64,000 nt of DNA from Trichopria drosophilae (taxonomy: Eukaryota > Arthropoda > Insecta > Hymenoptera > Diapriidae), in the NCBI GenBank assembly GCA_030407085.1, contig CM059585.1, forward strand, positions 89,356,501 to 89,420,500. The letters are read 5' to 3'. Below are positions 3,520 to 44,997 of the stretch, one piece after another (within the stretch, counting starts at the first letter, position 1; every line of letters begins with the position of its first letter). The notes below the pieces were generated by a model that worked only from the letters and a program-made list of their open reading frames with translations, made no database searches and was not told the origin of the DNA. The translations under genes and the position numbers were made by a program.

Positions 3520-5100
3520 GGTTGGATTTTGTCTGGACCATTAATTTTGCCAAATGATATGGGTAAAAAAACTGTTTGTTATTTGGCGAAATCTGATGTC
3601 TTAGAAAAACAGCTCGTAAAATTTTGGGAGCTAGAAGATCGGTATATGAATACTGAACCCAAATCATATTATGATCATTTTTGTGAGGAGCATTTTAAAA
3701 ATACTACATATCGTACATCGGACGGTCGATTTGTGGTCTCTTTCCCATTTAAAGAAAAGGATCATAATATATATTAGGTGAATCAAAAAAGCATTGCTAT
3801 AAACAGATTTTATTCTTTAGAGCGTAAATTGAATCGGGATAAAAATTTAAAAATGTTGTATGATGAATTCATTAACGAATATCTTACGATGGGACATATG
3901 GACCAAAGTTTCGGATAATAATGATAGCGTCGACCCAGCTCTATGTTATTATATGCCGCATCATCCGGTGCTTAAACCTTCGTCGTTCACAACAAAGCTT
4001 CGGGTCGTTTTCGACGCGTCTGCAAAGTCAAATAATGGCAAATCACTGAATGATTTGTTGTTGTCAGGGCCCACCATTCAAAACGATCTCTTTACTGTAA
4101 TTGTGCGATTTAGGCAGCATAGATATGGAATCACAGCTGATATCGCAAAAATGTATCGCCAAGTTTTAGTAGATTCGAAATTGAGGGCATTACAACGCAT
4201 TATTTGGCGGTTTTTAAAATTAATGAACCACTCGGACTTATGAATTTAAACACCGTGACTTACGGCATGGCTTCGTCTGCTTTTTTAGTAATTCGCTGCT
4301 TACAATCGCTAGCTGAAAATATTGTAGAAATTCCATTGTTATTAATTCGAGAAATACTCATTGAGGATTTCTATGTTGACGACCTGGTATCGGGAGCCGA
4401 AAGTGTCGATGATTTAAAATGGATTTATCGCGAACTTTCTCATATTCTCAGGGACGGCGGTTTTGAACTGAGAAAGTGGGTTTCTAATAGTGCCGAATTT
4501 ATAAGTACAATTGCGGACAGCGATGTAACGACAGCGAATTTCGTGCTGGGTGACGGTGAGAATCACAAGACTCTTGGGTTATCATGGAATCCAAGAGAAG
4601 ATGTTTTTATTTTTTACTGTGGATTTGAGACATAAGGGGTTGCAAATAACAAAACGAGAAATTTTGTCGACTATCGCGCAAATTTTTGACCCCTTAGGAT
4701 TGATTGCCCCCGTGACAACTATTGCAAAAACAATCATACAAAGGTTATGGCAGTTAAAATTGTCCTGGGATGAATCTATACCTCTAGATTTAAGAACTAA
4801 GTGGCAGAATTTGCGAGATAGTCTAGTAGACATTAACGATTTTACAATTCCCCGACATGCATTTGCAATTAATTCGGTTAATGTTCAGCTGCACGCCTTT
4901 TGCGACGCGTCGGAAATGGCCTATGGAGCCTGTGTTTACATTCGTTCCATCGATAAATATTCCAAATTGTACGATTCGTTTACTTGCTTCTAAGGCTCGT
5001 GTCGCGCCGCTTAAAGCAACGTCTATACCCAGGCTTGAGCTGTGCGGCGCATTAATTTTGAGTCAGTTGGTAAAAAAGTTGCGGGATGCTTTTAAAAATT
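3520..5100 (+). pseudogene. BEL/Pao reverse transcriptase and RNase H, fragmented
   Basis: RT sequence is spread over frames 3529-3777, 3860-4243, 4204-4635 and 4550-4993. Recognisable parts are LRVVFDASAKS (near 4000), ITADIAKMYRQ (near 4130) and the catalytic FYVDDLVSG, with YVDD codons at 4372-4383. An RNase H-like motif, [17 protein letters not shown], begins near 4890. Frame changes lie near 3775, 3850, 4210, 4600, 4960 and 5100. The active-site residues visible are intact, and the damage is to the frame rather than to conserved residues. Confidence 0.88.
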
Positions 5101-30178: not shown

Positions 30179-30180
30179 AT

Positions 30181-30631
30181 CCCGAGTGAAAAAAAATCAT
30201 CTTTGAAAGATCTTTCCAAGATCTTGTAAGCCTATGTTTGCTAACGTCTCGCTAATGGGACGGAGCAAGATGAATAAAAGACAAACAAATCTATTGCCTT
30301 GAAAGATATTAGAGAGATGTTCAATAGACAAATTTATAAAGACTCTTGCAGGATGAATTAATAAGGTTTGGAAGATGAATGAAAGACAATATAATGATGC
30401 TCTCGTGATATTTGCAAGCTTACGGCAAGATGATGTTCAAATAACGAAAAGATGTTGGAAAGATAACAAGAAGATGTTGGCAAGATAATCAAAAGATGTT
30501 GGGAAGATAACGAGAAGATGTTGGCAGGATAATCAAAAGATATTGAGAAAATGTTTGCAAGATAACGAAAACAATATCTCCAAATGAACGTAAAATGCTC
30601 GAAAAGCTACATTTTTATTCCCGTTTTATAA
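30181..30631 (+). repeat. Left terminal inverted repeat of the CACTA-like element
   Basis: About 451 bp, pairing with 42743-43184. Identity is complete over the outer 130 or so bases (to GAAAGATATTAGA) and falls inward. The inner part holds the 21-bp subterminal repeats. Confidence 0.92.
30450..30570 (+). repeat. Subterminal 21-bp repeats, left end
   Basis: AGATGTTGG-(N)AAGATAA-type units start near 30450, 30472, 30493, 30515, 30537 and 30550, spaced about 21-22 bp. Matching units in the opposite orientation occur at about 42800-42935 in the right end. Clustered subterminal motifs in plant CACTA elements are binding sites for the element's own DNA-binding protein. A similar role here is inference. 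Confidence 0.75.
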
Positions 30632-31186
30632 TTTTATTCAATTTGCAATTTTACAGTTTTTTATATTAAATTTGATATATCTGATTTGAAGTTAGCCACG
30701 ACAGAAATCAATATATAAGAATTCAGTTTTGTAGACATTGCAATCGGGAAGATTTGGATATATAGTAACATAACATTTTAGTATAATGTAATTTACTGAA
30801 AAATATCTAGTTTGGCTATTAAATTTCAAATTAGTCAGAAGCTTTTGTAAGATTTGAAGACAGTATGTGGAGTGAGTTTACATGATTTTTTGGTTAATAT
30901 ATTTAATTAAAAAAAAAATAATTTCTACGTTTTGGGTACTATACGACATTTAAACGTATTTTTACAACATGTATATGCCGGACTGTCTGCTGTATTTAAT
31001 AGCATCATTATTTTAAATAAATACATCAGGTATTCAAGTGCAATTTTCAATTCATTATTTATTAAATTGATGGATTTTTATAGACTAATTTCTTACATTA
31101 TAGTTTGTTTGAATTTTAGTGTATAGCCTATACAAACATCAAAAAACAAAATTTTTCTCTGCAAAATGATCACTACGTCGTTAAAA
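30632..31186. other. Non-coding interior of the CACTA-like element
   Basis: This is AT-rich sequence between the left inverted repeat and the 3' end of the BEN gene. It should include the BEN 3' UTR (minus strand). The 64-codon plus frame at 30932-31126 shows nothing recognisable. Confidence 0.5.
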
Positions 31187-34100
31187 TTATTTTTTCATTT
31201 TCAGTAACTTCTTTGTTAATTTTTTCAAGAGCTTTTTCTCTTTGTTGTGTTTGTGTCGCTTCTTATGCTTATGTCGTTCAGTTTCTACGGCTTTGCCTTC
31301 ACTATTCAGGTCTTTCTCATTTTCAGAGTCCACGGACTTCTTTTCGTCGTCTTTTTCTTTCCCTGCATCTTTCGAGATCTCTTTTCTGCATCTAACTTCC
31401 TTTTCTGCTTCAATTTGTTTCATATCGCTCGATGTTTTGTTGATTTCTTTCGAAGGCGCAATTCGGTCTTTTTCGTTCTCGTCATTCTGTCCTTTCTTAT
31501 CAACTGAATTAGATTTATCCATAGTCTTCTCTTTCTTATCTTTTCCCATCTCTGCATCTGTCGTGATCTCTTTTTCGTTCCTATCTTTCTTCTCTTTTTT
31601 AGTCTGTTTCATTTCGTTCATTTCTTCCACACGTTCATTTCGCTCGTTTTCCTCTTCGTCTTTCTGCCTTTCCTTTTTTTTCAAATCAGATTTATCCACG
31701 AATTCCTCTTCCTTATCTTTGCCCTTTGCTGCTTCTTTGTATTTATCTTTTTTTTGCATTTCAGTTTGTTTCATTTCCATATGTACATATTGTTCTTCTT
31801 CGTCCTCGTCTTTTTGCTCTTTCTCTTGCGACTCTGTTTCTGTATATGTTACGTTTCCGCTTTCCTTCACGCATTCATCATCCTTTGGTTTATACTTCTT
31901 TTCAGTTTTTCCTACTATTAGTTCTCGTTCTTCATTCGATTTTCTTATTGCACAGCACATTTGCGTCAGTATCCGTATGTAGTCCTTATGCGATATTTTC
32001 ATTTTCCGAACGATTGTTATGTACTCTGAAAATAAATGAAATGTTTGAATTTATAAATACTTAATTGTATAATTTCGTTATTTAATAAAAAATTCTTCAG
32101 TCTATAATGTCTATAAATATCCTTTTATAAAATATAAACACTTGTGTTTGCGAATGGAAATATTGAAAGAACGACACTATGGGATGCAAGATAATTGTAT
32201 AGTATCCCCCTCTTAAGTTATATGCACGAGACAAGCAAGCTAGAGGGCCCCTTCTTAAGTTATATGCACGAGACACGCAAAATGACGGCCCCCCCCCTCT
32301 TAAGTTATGTTTCATTACATTTAATTCCAATGGTTTTGCAGTATCATTTTCTGGTATTTTAGATACATTTCTAAGTTACGTGTTTGAACGTGAGCGGTTG
32401 TTGCATACAGTGCTTGATTAGGGAACGCGTTACAGTTTATAACGATTCATAACCTACAAAATTATAACTTAAAGGGGGTAAAATATATAACTGAAGAGGA
32501 AAATATGACATAAGAGGAGGACTACTGTATTTAGATTCCATGCTCTCTAATCTTCAATCCTAACCAAAAAGGTGAAATTAAACAATTTTCAAAGCCTATT
32601 CTAAAATTCTAGGCTCGGTACTAAGAAATAAAGCATGAAATGAAGTTAAAAACCAATTTCGCAAGAATTGATTTTGGAAATCGGAGAAAAACTTGAAACT
32701 AATAGTATCTTTTGATTTAGCGTAAATGTTTATTCACCGAATGTGATTTGGACCCTCGCTTCGCCTCGGGCCGCAACCCTTCACATTCGTGGAATGAACT
32801 TTTACGTAGTAGTTTCATAATATACTATTATCTGTTTGAGATCAATCAGTTGAAAACGAATAATAGCAAAACTGTTTTATTGCTTTCAATTTGGAGAGCA
32901 AGTTAAAGGCAAGACAAGTTCATAAAAAAGTCACATAATTGCTTTGTAATTCTACATGATACTTGTACATGTAAAGAATGTATAGGTTAGTGTGTTAAGA
33001 TTTCCAATATATAAACTTACGATAAACTGCTTCTAAGACATTGGCAGGAATGCGATCTCTATTCCTCCCACACGGAGTCATATTCAATAGCTTGTCTTCA
33101 CCAATAATTTTTTTCAACAGTTGTCGAATCATTTCATTGGGGTCTCCTTTGCATTTTTGTAGAATGATTTCGAGTTCTATGTGTTTGATCCTGACCCCTG
33201 AACCTTCTACTAATTCAACCTGTACAATTTATACATAACCGGTTGTACAATATTCTTAATAAAGTGTTTTGAGCGTTACGTGAATTGTGTAGTAATGCAG
33301 TATCAGACCACACATTTTTAACTTTAAAAATGCCGCGTAAAAGAATAACGCACGGGTGTTATGAAAAAGGAATCATCATTGTTCGTATGTAATAAAACTC
33401 TGCATTATTAAAGGTCAGTTATCAGAAAATAAAAAAAAAACATTATGGCGTTTGTCAATATAACATCAAGAACGTTCTAAAGTGATCAGCCGATCAGGTA
33501 GAAATTTACATACAAAAATTTTAATTAAAAATGAGTTAAAAAGTTTTTTTTAAATTGGCCTCCATGAAAGTGGTCCTAATCATTATACAATATCGCCTAA
33601 AAGATATCATAGAAATTAGTTTAGAATTGATCGAGTATTTTCGAAAATTGACGATTTATAATTATTTATGAAAATACTTGGTGAATTCTCGACTAATCTG
33701 TTTGACATTTTTTATGCGATATTAGATATAAAGATTAGAATCAGTTTTGTAGAGACCAATTTTTAAATAATTGATTTAGTTATTTTCAATATTTGTTTGC
33801 AAGCGTAAATCCCTACATTATCGGCAGAGCACTTTAGAGCCTCCTTAAAAGTAAATTTCTATTTGATTTATTGGCAATCCAGTTTGTCACTCGATATAAT
33901 AAACATGGGCAGGTCGATATATATGTAGGAATATATGTAGCATATATGTCACATATTACATTTTTCGCCGAAATTATATGCAATATATAGATTAAATATA
34001 TGCCAGATATAAATTTAAAACTACATGTGCATTCATATATCTAATATATATGTCACATATTGCATTTTTCGCCGAAAATATATGTGCATTTATTTAGCAT

Positions 34101-37100
34101 ATATGTCGCATATATTTATTTTCCGTTTGGGCGTTATCGCATTTTTTAATTGAAAAGTTTGATATAAAAGAGAAAAAGTACTTTGTAAAGAAGAATACCT
34201 ACGATGTAAGAAAAACACATTTGTAATATGAACTACAGTTAAGAAGGATAAAAAAGCAAAGATTAAAAAAATTAATTTGCAGAGATTAATTTTGTTTGTT
34301 TTTACTTACTGTGCTCAAAAAAATTAATTTTCTCATCTGCAATTTCTAATTTCATCTATTTTGACAAATTTTACAACATACCATATTTTCCGACTCACTG
34401 TTGGCATTCTCCTTTTACGAAGTGAAGTTTTATTTTAAAATGCAATTTCAATTTATCAATAAAGAGATTTGTTTCACTCTAGTTAAAGCGCTTTTTTACT
34501 TAAAATTTAATCGAATTTGAAACCTTACGAATAATAAAAAATTTTATTAAATTTTGTCCGTCTGTAAATAAATCAACATTGCCATTAAAGCAAATAAAAT
34601 AATTAGTTGATCTTGACAAATTTTCATTTTAGCGTGATTACAGCAACTATTTACAGTGCACTAACTCACATAGTTTCCTACTTTACTTCCTGACTGGTAT
34701 GTGAAGGTGTTATTAGCTCCCAATTCATTTCTGCTTTTATTATCTTGCTGGAAATATTTAGATTTCATCCAGTTAAGAACGTTCTCCAGTACGGTTATTG
34801 AATCCGCATCAACTACAAATATCACCATAATATTAAAATTAAAATTAAAATGTAGGTATATTATTGATACAAACAAAATGAAAAAAGTAGGGCTTTTAAC
34901 CTACAAAGTGCAAGTAACATCCGAATGCAGGACAAAATCCTGTAAGCACGTGTTAATTGCGAAGGAATATATATTTAAAAACGATGTTTTTTAATTATTT
35001 TCTTCTACGTTTCGAACCTACTACACGGAGAGAAATCTGAAAGGATGAAACTGTAGGTATTCCTTCGCCACTGTACTAAGATTTGGTGCTGGTGCTGCAC
35101 CATGTGTCGCGTAATATCAATAAGAAACCCACAGTCTCAGACTGTGAAAAGGCTTAGGATGAGACTGCAAAACTGCGATGCTTTCTTCGAGGCTTTCTCC
35201 CGCCTAAGTTTTACTTCTTAGACTAGGGCTCTCGCGGACTTTTTTGTAGGAAATTTCCTCCTCTACAAAAAAGGTTAAGTAAATTTTTGTTTTGCAGTCT
35301 CATCCTAAGCGATTTCACAGTCTGAGACTGTGGGTTTCTTACATTGATATCACGCGACACATGGTGCAGAACCAGCACCAAATCTTAGTACAGTGGCGGA
35401 AGGAATGCCTACAGTTTCATCCTTTCAGATTTCTCTCCGTGTAGGTTTCCTCATCAGTTTTAATCATTGGTTAATCAGAAGTAAATTTCTGCCTCCTGGT
35501 GAGGAACCCTAGTAGGTTCGAAACGTAGAGGAAAATAATTAAAAAACAACATCATTTTTTATATATATTCCTTCGCAAGTAACACGTGCTTACAGGATTT
35601 TGTCCTGCATTCGGACGTTACTTGCAATTTGTAGGTTAAAAGCCCTGCTTTTTTCATTTTGTTTGTATCAACATAATATAATTTTTGATCAATAAAATAT
35701 TATTAAAAAAGATTTATACCTACAAAATCTTCGCATGCTATACATTTTTCTCTGGATGCTTCGGCTTTAGCTTCCTAAGCAATAAATGAAATGAACAGTC
35801 ATTAATAATTGAAAACATTCATTAACACCGAATTTAGTGAGGAAAATGTAGGAATATTCGAGATAAAGTAACTAAACATATTTTTTGAATTCCGGCTTCG
35901 TTACTACAAAATGCAGTATTGTGTGAAGTTACAACACCAATTTCAAAAAAATTGATTTAGAATTGAATGAAAAAAAGAGAAAAGTTCACAATTTTCCAGC
36001 GATTTTTATGAAATTTATTTTGCTATTTCATATATAATATCTAATTTCGTTCTAACGAGTCGGAAATTTTGAAAATATATTTTATATATGATCTTCCAAG
36101 AAAATATCAATAAATTTAGATGACATTTAATGAATAATTTGTAAAAAAAAATTGTATTTTCATATTTGTGAAATCTATCGTTCAATATTTAGTTGAATGA
36201 ATTGGTATTTCTTTTTGATACCGTACAGATTATACAGTATCAGCACTAGAAATCGCGGTTTCAGTAACTTTTAAATAATATTTTTCTAACAGATTATTAC
36301 TTTATCGATTTCTGCCTCTAGAGACCCTTAGAGGGGGTCTAAACTAAACAAATTTATCACTGACTTCAACACAAAAAAAGTGTACATATAAATAGAATAA
36401 AACGTTTATTCTCAAAATTGAGGCATAGATAATACAATATTCTACATAATTCATAAAACATTCGAAAAAATGCCAGTGAATTCGGTTAAATATTGGACAG
36501 GAAATTTAGAAACAAATATGTGATACTAAACATAATTTGTTTCCAAAAGCTGTTATTAATTTTAGCAAATTTCTGCAGATGTTTTGTTTTGTCTTGTATG
36601 TACTTACAGTTTATAATTAAAATGTCAGGACTGAAATATTCAAAAAACGCTAAAATCTTTTAATTCAAACTTTAACGGTTGAGAATTTAATTCAGTAACT
36701 TTCCTACTTTAGCCAAATTAACAGAAGCATGCATTCAGACTATTTATTTATGAATAACATGAAGACTTAAAGGTGAATCAGGTGGTTCAGCAGAGAGGAA
36801 TTCTTCTTCTTCAAAAATACTGGATTGCTAGGAATAATATTCGAGAATAATTAAATTATGGTTAAAAATTATGTACATACATATTTAAATTCAAAGTACA
36901 TTCAACTAATTTTGAATCTGTTCTAAAAGTGATAGATAAAAATTCTAATTATATATAAAAATTACAAAACCTCTATCAAAATTTTTTCCATTTGTTTTTC
37001 ATTCTTTTTTATTTTCTGATTTACTGCTTTTGTGGCATCGTCAGTTTTTCTTTTTACGGCTTTCTTCTGCATCGATTTCTCTTCGCTATCATTTTGCAAC

Positions 37101-38112
37101 AGCTCTCCATTTTTTGAAACATTTAACGCAGTTAATTCTTCTTCATTATCTAAAATGTTAAAATATTAATTCGCTAAGGAACCAAACATGATGAGGAACT
37201 TAAACAATCAGCATTTTTGAAAATAAATGAACATTTTTAATAATATCCTGTTTTTATGTTTTGAAGTAAAAATTTTGTATAAAAACTGTCGTATAGCTGG
37301 AATAAATTCTATACTCAAAAATATCTTTTAAATATGTATTTAAATTTTTCTTCCTAGGTTAAACATCGTTTTATACATTACGAATACAAGAAAACAAATT
37401 TTAGGCTAAATTAATCTAAAATGCGTAAAAGCACATGAGTATTGCACGACAACCAATGTTTTATATAGACCGTTTTCAAAATCATGGTTTTATTTAGGAC
37501 CGTAAAATAAGGTTAAGAAAATATAAAAATCTTTATGTGTTTGAGGTTATATGATAAAGCTATTTCTTCACATACAATGTTAATAAAAATACACCGTTTG
37601 TAACTAAAATATTGCCAGTTTCCAGACATTTTTGGTACATTTTAATAAAAAACCTTGAAAGATTTAAATTAATGAGGTTCACTTCCCGAGCATAAATTTT
37701 TTTAGGCCCTGATCAGGGTGTAACACTTTTGGTCAGGCCCTGATCAGGGCCCTAATAGATTTCTACTCGGGTTACTACAAAAGTAGTACAGATATTTCAA
37801 ATGAACGTATAATATTCAAAATATATGTATATTATACTTAAAATAGTATTAATGGACGAAATACATTATTTTATTGAAAAATTTGACCTTTGGTGTTTTT
37901 TATAAAACTTTGTTTTAGCAGAATAAATGTTAATGTTTTAACATTTAATATTGAAAATTAAACTCACCACTGGTTGCAATAACCTTTGCGTGGAACCGCT
38001 TATTCCCCCATCTGGCTGATACCCAGTCTGACAGTGCTTTGTCCCTCTTAATATCACTGGAGAGTATTACGCTGGAAGATTTCTGTATTTTCCAGAAAAC
38101 TAACGAAAACAT
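31187..38112 (-). CDS. BEN-domain protein encoded by the CACTA-like element, seven exons
   Basis: Seven minus-strand exons join in phase with GT-AG introns: 38112-37968, 37149-36971, 36827-36759, 35774-35720, 34812-34670, 33219-33021 and 32025-31187. Lengths are 145, 179, 69, 55, 143, 199 and 839 nt, summing to 1629 nt, or 542 residues plus stop. Several donors are strong (GTGAGT, GTAAGT). Exon 1 starts MFSLVFWKIQ and contains SARWGNKRFHAKVIATSG, like the N-termini of BEN-type proteins. Exons 5-6 give a BEN domain (NYVELVEGSGVRIKHIELEI ... DPNEMIRQLLKKI ... ANVLEAVYQY). Exon 7 is an almost entirely Lys/Glu/Asp-rich, low-complexity tail ending KKLLKMKK, probably nuclear. BEN domains bind DNA or proteins in chromatin. 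Here it may act as the element's end-binding factor, which is inference. No frame damage is seen. Exon 3 boundaries are the least certain. Confidence 0.82.
32200..32527. mobile_element. TA-flanked pogo/Tigger-like MITE in BEN intron 6
   Basis: TA flanks both ends (32198-32199 and 32528-32529). The ends are inverted repeats of the form YAGTA(G)TCCYCCTCTTA. Inside, CTCTTAAGTTATATGCACGAGACA is repeated two to three times. A CAGTA start with TA duplication is typical of pogo/Tigger-group elements. At 328 bp it is non-autonomous. The ends are related to those at 49828-51591. Confidence 0.7.
32715..32810. repeat. Short palindromic element in BEN intron 6
   Basis: CGTAAATGTTTATTCACCGA ... TGTGA pairs imperfectly with TCACATTCGTGGAATGAAC ... 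TTTTACG across a GC-rich loop (CCTCGCTTCGCCTCGGG). It looks like a small MITE. Boundaries are approximate. Confidence 0.6.
33910..34125. repeat. AT-rich tandem repeat in BEN intron 5
   Basis: Two units about 105 bp apart each contain ATATATGTCACATATTRC then ATTTTTCGCCGAAA. Shorter CATATATGT pieces surround them. Confidence 0.7.
34864..35671. mobile_element. 808-bp palindromic element filling BEN intron 4
   Basis: TTGATACAAACAAAATGAAA at 34864 is answered by its complement ending at 35671. The arms continue inward almost without interruption to about 35180 and from about 35295, with pairs such as CAGTCTCAGACTGTG and GGATGAGACTGCAAAAC. The right arm carries about 75 bp absent from the left, including the GAAACG stem-loop at 35496-35527. 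There is no coding frame. The element occupies nearly all of the intron between BEN exons 4 and 5 (34813-35719). Confidence 0.85.
35496..35527 (+). other. GAAACG stem-loop motif (copy 3)
   Basis: CTGGTGAGGAACC-loop-GGTTCGAAACGTAG is a 5-bp stem followed by GAAACG, the same layout as at 16269 and 56695. The opposite arm of the palindrome lacks the upstream half. Confidence 0.4.
37685..37771. mobile_element. 87-bp MITE with CCCGAG ends in BEN intron 1
   Basis: The element begins CCCGAGCATAAATTTTTTTA and its right end reads CCCGAGTAGAAATC on the complement. Both arms carry GGCCCTGATCAGGG. TT flanks both sides, compatible with a 2-bp duplication. The terminal CCCGAG(T) is the same as that of the 13-kb element in which it sits, so it may be a small relative mobilised by the same transposase. 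Confidence 0.7.
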
Positions 38113-38585
38113 TGTAGAAATGCGAATAGTTGAAAATTACTTCATACAACCATAACACTACGCGATATGCTGCTTGATTCAATCACCTATTAATTCAGTT
38201 GTTATCTGACGTATCTATATGTTTCCTTGGTAATAACGACTACATAAAAAATGTAAATTGTCGAAAATTCCATCAATTTTAAATGCGCAAAGATTAAGGA
38301 AAATCCACTGCCTTTACGGTAAGTAAATTTATCAACATCTAATTTAGTTATTAATCATTTTCATAGTTATACAACGTAATTATATTTTATTAAAGTTTCA
38401 AAACAACAAGAAGGTTATATTAATTTTACATGCCTTTAAACCTATGATTTATTTGAAATTCAAGCGGCTTATTCCAATTAACGAATTTATATATTTTGGA
38501 AACCTGGAGTATATAAATTAATAACAGTTTATTTTCAGATTTTCCGTATAATGTTCGTAGTTGATTTGTTGAATAAAAGAAGATA
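38113..38585. promoter_or_regulatory. Divergent promoter region between BEN and transposase genes
   Basis: Only 473 bp separate the two start codons, which face away from each other. Both 5' UTRs and both promoters must lie here or read through it, which implies linked expression of the two genes. No definite TATA or initiator element could be singled out in the AT-rich sequence. Confidence 0.5.
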
Positions 38586-41500
38586 ATGCCAAAACGGCTA
38601 AAAAATTTGGAGGACTATTCCCGAACATCTCTTTACAGGCTATTAAAAGCGTTTAAAGAAAACAATTCGGAAGACGACAATGAAGGTATAATGTGTAATT
38701 AATCGAACTAATCTAATTCGAATATAAAGATAATTTTTATTGTTTACTCTATGTTCGGTAACTATTTGGTATCATCTGATTTTTCAACTAGTATATATAT
38801 TAACTACTTTTTTTACGTATATAAAGCAAATTTGATGTATTGTTTTTTTTTTTAAATAAACAATTTTTTTTTTATAAACTTGTCAATTTATTTAATTTTA
38901 TTTATATTTTTAAATGCAAATTCTGGTAAAGTTGATGATTGTTACAGAGACATGCCGTGTTAAAAACATAAATGAGCCAAAAAAAATGTTTGTTCGTTTC
39001 CGTCATGATTGGCTCAGTGTGTCATATTTACTTAAAAATCATTGATATGCAGATGTCATGATCGCTGAATTACAATATTTCATCTCAGAATTCTGAAATT
39101 TTATATGCCTGATCCAATATGGCCAAAATTAAAAATAATAACTGAAATTTAATAAAACTTAGTATTTAACAGTTTCTTGAGATGTTAAATTTTAAATCCT
39201 ACACTGTTATTTTGAATTTTGAAATTTGGATATCATATATTCACCATTAACACTTTTAATAATTCTTAAATACCATGATTCACCTATTTCTACTTATTTC
39301 TGTACTCAGATACACCATATGTGATCTGCCATTTTCTATTTTGAACTCTGAATATCAATTTCTTAATCATTACCTTTAAAAACTTGTTAAACATTTGAAG
39401 TTGGTGAATCATGATATTTAAGAATTATTAAGAGTGTTATTTGCGAATATATGATTAATTAATATAAAATTGATTAATAAAATTAATCCAGAAAGCTTCA
39501 AACAATCACCATAATCGTCTTATTTTGATGTATAATAATACTTACTTCGGGTCCATCACGTACGATACTTCTTTTATGCCTTGCGGTCTTAAAATAAAAA
39601 ACAATAATGTTTTGATTTAAGTTTCAAGCCAGCAGTAACTTGTTTCAAGACTGTATTCTGAATTAATGGCTATATTTAAGTCAATTCTTTAAAGAAGTCA
39701 CACCTGGTTGTAAGACATTTTTTTATGTGTAATGAGCGCATAATATATATCCTATTTATTTCAGCGGGAACAACGGGAGCAGATGTTATTAAAGAGAGTG
39801 ACAGAGAAAATAATGAAACAGAATCTACGGAAGGAGAGGAAGAGGACGAAATCATGAGCAGTGGCGAAGAGTCAAATTTAGAGGAGAATGTGTCGAGGAT
39901 AACGGATCCTGAAGAATGGATAGAAGAACGGAATGAAGAATGGAATGAAGAATGGAATGAAAATCCAGAAGATAGCGAAGATGATGAATGTGAAGAAGGC
40001 GAATCAGAAAACAATTCATGTGAAGAAGAAGAAGAAGAAGAAGATAAAGAAAATGAAAATAATATTCCTGTGTCAAGTGAATGCAGTTTAACAGTGCCTG
40101 AAGTTATGCTTATTATTATAACATTAATGATTCGTCATAAATTAACGGGATCATGTTTATCCGATATTTTATTGCTCATAACAATGCTGTGTCCGCGAAA
40201 AGAGGTTGCAAGATGCATGGGCTCATTATATCGTTTTCGAAAATATTTCGCAAACATACGCGCCCCAGTATTACGACATTTTGTATGTTCACAATGCTTT
40301 GCTAAATTAGCCACAAAATCAGATAAATGCACTGATTGTAAACAAAATGCAATATTTTTTATAGAAATCCCAATATTATGGCAGTTACAAGCATTGTTTA
40401 AAAGGCCAGGGTTTTATGAAAAACTGCAACATCGTTTTACACGTTCCAAACGAGTAAATAACAACCTCGAAGACATCTATGACGGCAGTATTTATCAAAA
40501 TTTATCTAAAGAAGGACAAATCTTAAGTAATCCAGACAATATATCCTTTACGTGGAACACAGACGGTGTACCCATTTTCAACTCTTCCAAATATAGTATC
40601 TGGCCATTTTACCTGGTGATTAACGAGCTGCCTTATGCAGAAAGATTTAAAAAAGAAAATTTAATATTAGCAGGTTTATGGTTTGGACCTAAAAAACCAT
40701 CCCCAAATGCTTTCCTTCTACCATTTGTAAATACTTTTAAAAAATTATTTCAAGGAGTATTAATGGCAGTTCCTTCCCTGGCAGAGTCTATAATTGTACG
40801 GGGAATTATTGTTTGTGGAACTTGTGATTTGATTGCAAGAGGAATGTTCTTAAATCACAAGTAATTCAACGGCAATTATGGGTGTCCAAGGTGCAAATTA
40901 TGTGGTGTTAATGTAGGTAAAATCCATACATATCCATATCAAGAAAATTTGGAGTTGCGGACCACTGCAGATACTCAGTACCATGCTAAAGAAGCATTTG
41001 AAACAGAGGAGCCTGTGTTTGGCGTAAAAGGTCCAACTGTAATAGCAAAATTCGTACACGATTATATAAACACAACAGTCGTAGATCCAATGCATTGTGT
41101 GTATCTCGGCATAACAAAAAAACTATTAGATCTCCATTTTAATCCCAATTATCATAAAAAACCGTATTCCTTATCCAAAATGATCAAAGTTGTTGATAAT
41201 CGAATTTCCGCATTAACGCCACCGACATTTGTACCAAGGTTACCTAGGAAAATTTCAGAATATGCTTACTGGAAAGCTTCCGAATTACAAATTTATCTTT
41301 TATACTTCTCAATACCACTATTATATGATATTATGCCAATTCAATATTTTGAACACCATAAGTTACTTGTTTTAAGTATTTATTTACTAAATCAGCAAAG
41401 TATTTCGACTGAAATGGTTAACTTAGCAAAGTGTCTTTTACATAAATATGTAGCTAATTACGCTAATTTGTACGGGTCTAAAAACATGTCATGTAACATT

Positions 41501-42274
41501 CACCAGTTATTGCATATTCCGGATGATGTAAAACGTTTCGGTCCACTCCCGGGGATATCATGTGCCCCTTTTGAAAATGCAAATGGTGTACTTAAAAACT
41601 TAGTTCATGGTACAAGTTGTGCAGAACGGCAAATATGTTCCACTGCTTCATTATTTATTAATCTTGACCATCTGAAATCTAAATTTCTTCAACCAAGCAG
41701 TTCAGCGCACAAACTTTGCGAAAAAATTACAAAAAAAGGTTGGCAACGTCAAAAACTAACGTTTTGTTCGCAAAATTTATATATTGTTGGCAAATGGATA
41801 TTAAGTCAGATTTTGCCCGACTCAATTAGAAATTTAATTAACGTACATAGGTTAGTGGGTAGAAAATATATTACTTTTCAAAAATTATTAATGAATGGAA
41901 ACTTGTATACCTCACAATCTTATCAACGCTCCATGAAAGTTAATTCTAATTGCATAAAATACAAAGTTGATGATGTATTTAATATAGGAATGATTGAAAG
42001 TTTCCTAATGACAACTGAATGTACTTGTAGTACTTTGTGCGAAAATTGCCCTGTAAATATGCAAGTTTATGCTATCGTAAAGAAAACTAATGCTGTAAAT
42101 ACTTTTTGTACACCTTATACCAAACTCTCTTTTATATGGAAATTAACAGAGGTTTTAAATGATCCATTTGTGCTTATTGATGTATGTAATATTGAAAGCC
42201 TATGTTATTACGTCGTAATAAATTCTAATAATATATATGGAATTGAAACAGCGAATACACTAAAATTCGAATAA
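38586..42274 (+). pseudogene. CACTA/EnSpm-type (tnp2) transposase, two exons, one in-frame stop
   Basis: Exon 1 (38586-38685, starting MPKRLKNLEDYSRTS) joins in phase 1 to exon 2 (39765-42274) through GTATAA and TTTCAG splice sites. Together they give 870 codons. An acidic, Glu/Asn-rich segment follows the start. A Cys4 motif (CSQCFAKLATKSDKCTDC) lies near 40290. The tnp2 core has WNTDGVP (Asp codon 40562-40564), then LVINELPYAERF, then DPMHCVYLG (Asp codon 41084-41086) and CAPFENANGV (Glu codon 41573-41575). These are likely the DDE triad. Near its midpoint a single TAA (40862-40864) interrupts the frame, which then continues unshifted through FNGNYGCPRCKLCG. The enzyme would cut and rejoin the CCCGAGTG ends. 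As written this copy yields only a truncated product unless the stop is read through or is an allele or sequence error. Confidence 0.85.
39230..39455. repeat. Inverted-repeat element in transposase intron 1
   Basis: ATCATATATTCACCATTAAC with the following TTTTAATAATTCTTAAAT ... ATGATTCACC (39231-39284) is answered by a close reverse complement at about 39405-39455. The arms are about 55 bp and the loop about 120 bp. It is a small hairpin-forming MITE. Confidence 0.75.
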
Positions 42275-42742
42275 ATTAAAATGTAAAAATAAATGTCAAA
42301 TTAAAGTCTAGTATAAAAATCCGTTAATTCAATAAATAGTTAAATAAATATGGCATTATTTGTTTCATGTATGCATTTCCAATAATGATGCTCTTTAATA
42401 CTAAAGATAGACCGATGTAAACATATTTTGGACTCTACCAAATATCTTATATCACCCACAACTTCAAATATATTAAGTGAATAATTCATGCAAACTCCCT
42501 CTACATACTGCTTTCAAATCTTGCAATACCTTCTGACTAATTTAAAGAATACTATCCATTTTAGACATTTTTTAGAAAATTAAATTATAATAAAATGTTA
42601 TATTACTACCTATATCTTCAAATCTTCCCGTTTGCATTGTCAACAGAACTAAAGTCATATTCCATATTTTCTCTGTTCGCGAATGTTAAATTATACATGT
42701 AAATTCATTAGAAGAAATTGTAAAATTGCAAGTTCCAAAATA
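42275..42742. other. Non-coding 3' flank of the transposase gene
   Basis: AATAAA-like sequence near 42331 (TTCAATAAATAG) could end the transposase transcript. Nothing else is seen before the right inverted repeat. Confidence 0.5.
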
Positions 42743-43184
42743 TTCTAAAACGGAAATGAAAATAAGTAGCTCTACAAGCACTTTACGTTCATTTTGCGAT
42801 ATAGCTTTCGTTATCTTGCCAATATATTTTGATTATCTCGCCAATATCTTCTTGTTATCTTCCCAACATCTTTTGATTGTCTTGCTAACAGCTTCTCGTA
42901 ATCTTTCAAACATCTTTTTGTTATCTGGTCATCATCTTATTATTAGCTTGCAAAGATCAAGAAAGCATCTCTGAATTGTCTCGCATTTATTTTCCAAACC
43001 TTTTTAATTTATCTTGCAGGCGTCTTTATAAATTAGTCTCTTGAATATCTTTCTAATATCTTTCAAGGCAATAGATTTGTTTGTCTTTTATTCATCTTGC
43101 TCCGTCCCATTAGCGAGACGTTAGCAAACATAGGCTTACAAGATCTTGGAAAGATCTTTCAAAGATGATTTTTTTTCACTCGGG
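42743..43184 (-). repeat. Right terminal inverted repeat of the CACTA-like element
   Basis: About 442 bp, ending CACTCGGG at 43184. It is the reverse complement of the left end, identical over the outer 130 or so bases. It contains the right-hand set of subterminal repeats (TTATCTTCCCAACATCTTTT and variants, about 42800-42935). Confidence 0.92.
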
Positions 43185-43209
43185 ATGTATAATATTACAT
43201 GAGCAATTA

Positions 43210-44997
43210 GAGTGGAACAAAAATAAAAAAGTTTGAATTTTGACAAACATACAAAACAAGTAAATTCAGTATGTGAAAAAGAGTACTCTCAATATTTTCC
43301 AGATTTTTCTGTCAAAGGTCGTTTGATAAAACGAACGCCATTGAATTGATACAGTATATGCTTTGTAAGATGAATCTAGATGATTATTTTTTTAATATCA
43401 TAGACATTTTAATGCACATTTTAAGCGGTCGTGAACCTATTTTGATCTAATAGAATATAGGATATAATTTTTTGAATCCTTTTTTTGACAATTTTCGATT
43501 TAAAAATCTCTCTATTTTATGTAAAAAAAATCTAACAACATGGTATTATTTTTTTTCATAAAATAGACATTCTCACGCACATTTTAAGAGGCCGTGCACC
43601 TGTTTTGGTCTAGTAGAATATGATATATGATTTTTTTTCTGACAATTTGGATTAAACAAATGTCTGTTTTATGTAAAAAAATCTACGACTTTGCTATTAT
43701 TTTTTTACATGATAGACATTACATAGGGCATTTGGCGATATCTATGACCTTAAGACATAAAGTTTTTTTATCATGTACATTAGTTAGAATTACATTTATT
43801 GTAAAAAACGTGAATTTTTAAACTTTCTTTATTAATAACAAAAGTATACTTATCAATAAATGCGGAGAGTACGTTACAAATACCTCCTAAAAGAATATCA
43901 GTAAGCCAGTCTAACATACTAAAAGCTAAAACTTATAATTTCATAACAAAAAATAGCTTAAAGCATTTTGTTAACTACAAATTACCATTAAATTATTTAC
44001 AAATTGACCCTAGTTTGTGGGACTAAGCTGTTAGTTATAAAGAGGCTATGACAAATATAAAAGTCATGAATGATGTTGCTGAGTGTGGTGTTGCACTTGC
44101 TCAAAGTCATATTTTGTTAACAAAACATGAAGAACAGTATCAGTACCTAATGCAAAGTGTTGAACACCATCTGAAAGTATTTCCTTCATCTGCAAAAAGA
44201 TGTGATCAAGAAAGACTAATATATTCAAAAAATTAAAGTAAATAATGAATTTTGAACTCATTATTATATTATCTCAATTATTTATAATATATGATATTTT
44301 GTAAATTGAATATATAAAATGAATAAAATGTATTTCAAAATTACATATACGTATCGTTATTAACACCTCACTTCAATTGTAGCATTATAATTGTTATTAA
44401 CCAAAATTATCGTACATCTAGTCACTTATTTTACGAAATTACATACCCCACAATGTTTAAAAAATTACATTTCCCGTTATATTTCATATTCCTAGATTTT
44501 TTTTTACACAAAACACAGACATTTTCTTAATCGAAATAGTAAAAAAAAACCATTCAATAAATCATATCTCATATTCTGCTGGACCAAAATAGGTCTCTTA
44601 AAATGTGCGGGAGAACATCTATTTTATAAAAAAATAATAGCATATTGTTAGATTTTTGTTACATAAAATACAGAGATTTTTCAAAATCAAACTGTTCAAA
44701 ACTCTCAAAAAATAGATCATATTCTATTAGATCAAAATATGTTCACGACTTCTTAAAATATGCATTAGAATGTCTATGTTATTAAAAAAATAATCATTTA
44801 TCATTCATCGTACAAAATATATACTATATCAATTCAACGGCGTTTGTTTCTTCAAACGACCTTTAAGCAAAGACAGCGACCTCTAAATAATTACCGAAAA
44901 ATCTGAAAAAAAATTGAGAGTACACTTTTTTACATACTGAATCTATTTGTGATGTATGTTTGTCAAAATTCAACCTTTTTTTATTTTTCCGCCACCC
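43210..44997. mobile_element. TA-flanked element with about 500-bp inverted arms
   Basis: TA flanks both ends (43208-43209 and 44998-44999). The left end is GAGTGGAACAAAAATAAAAA and the complement of the right end is GGGTGGCGGAAAAATAAAAA. Pairing extends over about 500 bp per arm. Each arm contains a tandem unit of about 170 bp with AGACATT-type starts, for example at about 43407 and 43566. The TA duplication suggests a Tc1/mariner-group non-autonomous element. It starts only 25 bp after the end of the CACTA-like element. Confidence 0.75.
43970..44236 (+). pseudogene. Short fragment of a transposon-associated protein in the loop of the TA element
   Basis: Between the arms, LNYLQIDPSLWD, a stop, and then the 62-codon frame 44048-44236 (MTNIKVMNDVAECGVALAQ ... 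LLTKHEEQYQYLMQSVEHH) read as one protein. The NDVAERG / LTKNEEQ pattern is familiar from multi-copy insect genes of transposon origin, but I cannot name the family. Upstream frames are broken, so this is a remnant. Confidence 0.45.

Follow-up and report, generated by a model that had tools for sequence, protein, structure and literature searches.

A stretch of 64,000 nucleotides from Trichopria drosophilae (GenBank assembly GCA_030407085.1, contig CM059585.1, positions 89,356,501 to 89,420,500 of the forward strand; hereafter the window, to which coordinates without further label refer) contains a 13-kb transposon, which was analysed here with respect to its genes, its ends and its copies in the genome. 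Judged by its transposase motifs, its CCC ends and its 2-bp target-site duplications (TSDs), the element is an animal CACTA transposon. It moves whole, together with both of its genes, one for a tnp2-type transposase and one, in divergent orientation, for a protein with a Tudor-like N-terminal domain and a predicted BEN fold. The BEN gene has long belonged to the transposon lineage, and in many related elements the two genes stayed and diverged together. We consider it probable that the element represents an animal lineage of the CACTA/EnSpm (CMC) group in which a tnp2 DDE transposase is encoded head-to-head with a Tudor-like/BEN-fold protein, the latter acting in a role like that of the plant protein TnpA.

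Structure and classification of the element

The unit spans positions 30181-43184 (13,004 bp), starts with CCCGAGTG, finishes with CACTCGGG and is flanked by AT on each side. A preliminary description of the window had placed a 13.0-kb unit with inverted-repeat ends at 30179-43186, thereby counting the AT/AT target duplication as well; this unit was recovered, as was the divergent gene pair with tnp2 on the plus strand and the BEN gene on the minus strand. The inverted repeats had been called nearly identical, which is wrong because the arms are only 89% complementary in their outer 374 bp and 70-80% in their inner parts. The unit contains the following features:

30179..30180, no strand: left TSD AT, equal to the AT at 43185-43186
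30181..30552, plus strand: left terminal inverted repeat, outer part, 5' CCCGAGTG, with 89% complementarity to the right arm
30207..30563, plus strand: left AAGAT array, 15 sites, 13 of them in one 11-bp register
31187..32025, minus strand: BEN exon 7, end of the BEN domain and K/E-rich tail, stop at 31187
33021..33219, minus strand: BEN exon 6, BEN core
34682..34812, minus strand: BEN exon 5, aligned with Cotesia glomerata P0001
34857..35678, no strand: nested palindromic repeat resembling a miniature inverted-repeat transposable element (MITE), in BEN intron 4; the stretch is found in all eight copies
35720..35774, minus strand: BEN exon 4
36753..36760, no strand: breakpoint of a 63-bp deletion, window copy only, exon-3 donor lost
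36759..36827, minus strand: BEN exon 3, truncated in the window copy
36971..37149, minus strand: BEN exon 2
37968..38112, minus strand: BEN exon 1, Tudor-like N-terminal domain
38113..38585, no strand: region between the two start codons, 473 bp, presumed shared promoter
38586..38685, plus strand: tnp2 exon 1
39765..42274, plus strand: tnp2 exon 2, encoding the DDE-type transposase (PF02992) and interrupted in the window copy by an in-frame stop at 40862-40864
42813..43158, minus strand: right AAGAT array, 13 sites, 10 of them in one 11-bp register
42813..43184, minus strand: right terminal inverted repeat, 3' CACTCGGG
43185..43186, no strand: right TSD AT

The two exons proposed for tnp2 were found and matched the Pfam family PF02992 (tnp2/Transposase_21) over the cut-off, both in the window copy before its stop (E 2.9e-9) and in a sister copy with an open frame (E 1.5e-10); the window portion past the stop gave no Pfam match when scanned alone. 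The stop, which the preliminary description did not take into account, corresponds to residue 400 of the spliced frame, and at this site the frame is open in the six other full-length copies (864 codons). In the passages available of PMC12730594, CACTA/EnSpm (CMC) transposases are described as carrying C(2)C and H(3-4)H motifs within the DDE triad, after the second D and before the E. This arrangement is present in tnp2, where D267, D355, C374/C377, H580/H584 and E604 were invariant in 15/15 sequences; from the order of the motifs, D267, D355 and E604 are the putative catalytic acidic residues. CCC ends were found in 7/7 copies and a 2-bp TSD in six of them, with a 3-bp TSD in the remaining one, and CCC termini and 2-bp TSDs define animal CACTA elements of the TRC type (passages of PMC1636069).

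The BEN-type gene on the minus strand consists of seven exons whose splice sites were picked by hand and which join in phase to 538 codons. It had been described as intact; the in-phase joining holds, but the window copy lacks 63 bp at 36753-36760 that are present in the seven other copies and that comprise, as judged from one sister copy, the end of exon 3 and its donor site. Exon 3 of the window copy joins in phase through a chance GT created by this deletion. The name of the gene is upheld by structure prediction, in which a BEN fold was found, but not by Pfam: the BEN family PF10523 did not match the transposon protein in scans at E up to 1 and up to 10, and none of the 82 Pfam-type BEN matches of the genome lies inside the seven copies. 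The Cotesia glomerata protein likewise gave no Pfam BEN match, and a PDB sequence search with the BEN protein returned just weak rows from one unrelated protein (E 0.26 and worse). The MITE-like repeat at 34857-35678 has many more matches in the genome, at 93-100% identity.

Copies in the genome and movement as one unit

The genome of T. drosophilae was searched with the BEN core, the C-terminal half of tnp2 and the left end, and all three led to the identical set of seven places, with ends about 13.0-13.1 kb apart. The middle of the unit was searched separately (query 34700-39400) and was found at about 100% identity in these seven copies and in an eighth at C4:118.24-118.25, which is truncated: the 3.0 kb read there past window position 32173 show no match to the distal end of the BEN gene. 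Compared over three stretches (3.1-3.8 kb; the first and the second overlap), each of the seven copies has 0-2 substitutions relative to the majority. Their flanks differ, and their target duplications are AT, AT, TT, TA (TATA on both sides), TG, TA and the 3-bp CTA. As far as the copies were read, the tnp2 frame is open in 6/7 and BEN exon 6 in 7/7, and the frame of BEN exon 7 has 287 codons in six copies and 102 in the one at C1:131.7; BEN exons 2, 4 and 5 of the other copies are covered by the region-level identity of about 100% and not by base-by-base reading. The element is recently active. Copies with the same ends that always lack the BEN gene, which the preliminary description had named as evidence to the contrary, were not what was found, as 7/7 full-length copies carry the gene and the eighth keeps part of it.

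The insertion at C1:131.7 interrupts a repeat, of which ten matches elsewhere span the joined flanks. It was rejected as a clean empty site because the target copy is about 25 bp short at the junction relative to three aligned copies. For the flanks of the window unit, no spanning (empty-site) match was obtained in the genome search.

Short derivatives with the ends of the unit were found as well. For two, at C2:85.36 (1.2 kb) and C4:25.57 (0.88 kb), both ends were read; three partly read pieces have one end and bits of the 37.8-38.3 kb region, and eight weaker inverted pairs span 0.46-0.59 kb. Most of both genes is gone from these derivatives, as is typical of deletion derivatives, and their common ends point to mobilisation in trans.

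The CACTCGGG pattern occurs 3921 and 3862 times in the genome compared with 1947 and 1972 times for a reversed control, an excess of about twofold hinting at many short elements with such ends. A second element adjoins the unit on the right at 43219-44987, with inverted arms at 43219-43298 and 44908-44987 and inner pairs, and the adjoining stretch on this side matches many places in the genome.

Pairing and co-divergence of the BEN and tnp2 genes

In order to define places of both genes, 64 matches of the BEN core (150 of 164 candidates having been scored) were reduced to 56 places by dropping seven second exons of recent copies and one fragment, and 93 matches of tnp2 (the best-scoring part, 91 of 1,114 candidates having been scored) to 90 places by dropping three extra fragments. 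Outside the eight recent copies, 15 of the 48 older BEN places have tnp2 within 15 kb. By nearest neighbour 13 of these 15 pairs are head-to-head, or 14 if C1:125828704 is assigned to its other tnp2 neighbour. Random placement, a control that ignores clustering of repeats, yielded 0.115 on average and at most 3 in 10,000 trials. Starting from the 90 tnp2 places, a BEN core lies head-to-head within 20 kb in 23 cases and in another arrangement in 2; exon 1 was found head-to-head at 17 and otherwise arranged at 1, and either exon 1 or the BEN core at 29. Some exon-1 matches are weak when taken alone (E 0.3-0.9), and the match at C6:37.6 reached E 1.1e-11 with a profile built without the re-read sequences. 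For a tnp2 family of 784 codons with 12 copies, exon 1 and the BEN core are present upstream in the single flank read (L085). The BEN gene is not a host gene at one fixed locus, as had been allowed for in the preliminary description: it occurs at many places and nearly always head-to-head when near tnp2.

The distances of tnp2 and the BEN core were compared in 16 pairs, namely the window, the 784-codon family and the 14 older pairs that lie head-to-head at up to 15 kb. The two sets of distances are correlated with a Mantel r of 0.853, and r is 0.639 among nine lineages that are at least 35% apart in tnp2; neither value was reached in 20,000 permutations. Selection was assessed in 20 BEN-core comparisons 3-45% apart, nine of which had a usable synonymous divergence (dS). 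The ratio of nonsynonymous to synonymous divergence (dN/dS) was 0.08-0.17 in six of the nine, and in the 11 comparisons with saturated dS the proportion of nonsynonymous differences (pN) was 0.23-0.30 versus 0.74-0.86 for synonymous ones (pS). This shows that the BEN core is under purifying selection in most usable deep comparisons.

Beside the upstream one, another stretch resembling exon 1 (Tudor-like) lies downstream of tnp2 in the 784-codon family, at 3950-4132 on the plus strand in L063, L064 and L066 and at 255-437 on the minus strand in L065, L067 and L068, perhaps an inverted duplication. The Pfam family PF10523 has 82 matches in the genome at E up to 10, of which 34 are marked as over the cut-off and some sit in tight inverted or tandem groups; they are perhaps a second BEN expansion, unlinked to the tnp2 clade considered here. 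The domain DUF4806, considered as an accessory partner of the other tnp2 loci, was rejected, its single genome match (C4:43.98) lying beside none of the 90 tnp2 places. A scan of viral contigs with the tnp2 alignment gave 42 pattern matches, none of which was confirmed.

Subterminal repeat arrays and the proposed role of the BEN protein

As in En/Spm, subterminal arrays are present at both ends of the unit. The two 0.52-kb ends contain 15 and 13 AAGAT motifs versus a shuffle mean of 2.5, and pairs exactly 11 bp apart occur 7 and 5 times versus 0.01. A single 11-bp register accommodates 13/15 and 10/13 of the sites, which was reached in 0 of 20,000 random placements for each end. The preliminary description had given repeats of 21 bp; the repeats are real, but their period is 11/22/44 and not 21. 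In the family at C2:173.1, whose tnp2 is 38% identical and whose true ends are unlocated, the inverted repeats are devoid of AAGAT and contain 6 and 14 GGACTT motifs, which form 2 and 6 pairs spaced by 11 bp. A clear array signal was absent from the other flanks read, most of which stop short of the element end, and weak in L059 and L062.

A TnpA-like role of the BEN protein is made likelier by the phased, family-specific subterminal motifs. By analogy, the BEN domain would bind the AAGAT sites at both ends, whose spacing of 11 bp is about one helical turn, and a row of BEN domains on one face of the DNA would coat both ends, which the transposase could then pair and cut. With TnpA of plant En/Spm again as the precedent, the BEN protein may also regulate the short shared promoter, and the Tudor-like domain could provide a contact to chromatin. 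As the diverged C2:173.1 family keeps the layout and carries another motif, the protein would evolve in step with its sites. Neither TnpA nor the VANC protein considered below is known to be a BEN protein.

Plant TnpA recognises subterminal repeats and is needed together with TnpD for transposition, and proteins of these types and their repeats vary between families (passages of PMC2613891). Maize En/Spm and soybean Tgmt* resemble the present element in combining a transposase with a fast-changing second protein and in having subterminal repeats at both ends with family-specific motifs; in both, however, the proteins come from one transcription unit, and Tgmt* ends in CACTA and duplicates 3 bp of its target, unlike the CCC ends and mostly 2-bp duplications found here (same passages). 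The second protein is not produced here by splicing of the transposase unit, and because the BEN gene has a start codon of its own on the opposite strand, the element was not filed as a member of En/Spm in this respect. The animal CACTA (TRC) elements, such as SmTRC1 of Schistosoma mansoni and those of Aedes and Tribolium, share tnp2 (Transposase_21), CCC termini and 2-bp target duplications, and a TnpA-like second product was postulated for them; that product was attributed to alternative splicing, with conservation undetected (passages of PMC1636069), whereas the present element devotes a separate, divergent gene of several exons to a protein with a Tudor-like domain and a BEN fold. In searches of open-licence papers, with Repbase outside their scope, none of the papers listed described a BEN protein encoded by a CACTA element, and nothing joined EnSpm with a BEN domain; the combination of BEN domain, Tudor and transposon led to a histone review only, and the passages seen of PMC5704228 mention 'BEN domain' and 'CACTA' in unrelated places.

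Several points weigh against the TnpA-like reading. No tnp2 match lies within 15 kb of 33 of the 48 older BEN places, and no partner was seen at 49 of the 90 tnp2 places; many of these are fragments and diverged copies are poorly detected by the BEN search, but tnp2 elements without a BEN gene may exist. These 90 places come only from the best-scoring part of the candidates, 91 out of 1,114 having been scored, and 12 of them form the 784-codon family, the pairing of which was judged from one upstream flank. Outside T. drosophilae a single homologue of the BEN protein was found, Cotesia glomerata P0001, whose gene neighbourhood is unread. The six low dN/dS values amount to about three independent contrasts because four of them set the same two groups against each other, and the other three were 0.47, 0.43 and 1.06, the last two from very close copies. 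As regards the arrays, both motifs were picked post hoc after inspection of the sequence, the single-register test is weaker for GGACTT (169 of 20,000 random placements reach it), and the element ends of other families are unlocated. Moreover, tandem duplication of 22-bp units alone would give 11-bp phasing, and autocorrelation by itself is unspecific, a coding-side control (36901-37500) also being led by lags 33 and 11.

Alternatively, the Tudor-BEN protein could be an anti-silencing or transcription factor that binds the arrays and keeps the shared promoter open, while the transposase alone cuts and pairs the ends. The model for this is VANC of the plant MuDR-type VANDAL elements, a transposon-encoded protein that binds short family-specific motifs accumulating in tandem arrays, for which co-evolution was proposed (passages of PMC5735166). 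The present element likewise combines a protein of chromatin type with family-specific arrays and a short shared promoter, and such a role fits most facts that the TnpA-like role fits. The arrays, however, lie in the terminal regions of both ends and are kept in both short derivatives read with both ends, which fits a cis role at the ends; end-located arrays are also compatible with a double role, as for TnpA. We regard a purely VANC-like function as possible but rather unlikely.

Capture of a host BEN gene as a passenger, in the style of Pack-CACTA, is very improbable. The genome is rich in other BEN-type stretches (82 Pfam matches at E up to 10, 34 over the cut-off), and plant CACTA elements carry captured genes. 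Nevertheless, the head-to-head layout is kept in diverged elements (23/90 versus 2 in other arrangements), tnp2 and BEN co-diverge, purifying selection is seen in most usable comparisons, and of the Pfam-type BEN matches none is found head-to-head at up to 20 kb from the 90 tnp2 places, one being near in another arrangement. Layout, co-divergence and selection speak against recent capture as well as against chance neighbourhood. Least probable of all is an independent BEN element nested in or neighbouring tnp2 by chance or insertion preference, which could draw on the 33/48 older BEN places without nearby tnp2 and on the MITE-like repeat inside the unit, but is contradicted by the single CCCGAGTG end pair and single TSD enclosing both genes in 7/7 copies, by the nearly always head-to-head order of near pairs and by start codons 473 bp apart.

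The probable TnpA-like role can be extended to the tentative and, as a whole, rather doubtful proposal that in a whole lineage of animal CACTA elements the place of TnpA is taken by a Tudor-BEN protein, whose BEN part reads helically phased, family-specific arrays at the ends and whose Tudor-like part provides a tie to marked chromatin, and that bracoviruses may have obtained their BEN genes from this gene family in wasps. BEN proteins of bracoviruses of parasitoid wasps likewise have a conserved N-terminal domain, a C-terminal BEN domain and several exons; the passages available of PMC4574769 contain no transposase linkage, and the comparison with the transposon protein is one of description, not sequence.

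A second protein for animal CACTA elements was postulated before, and in the passages seen of PMC1636069 a known domain was never assigned to it. The BEN protein is a good candidate for this missing partner, and the conserved protein with its predicted BEN fold, the defined candidate target array and the nearly identical recent copies make the two-protein model testable in insect cells. Moreover, the element is a mobile source of BEN-fold genes.

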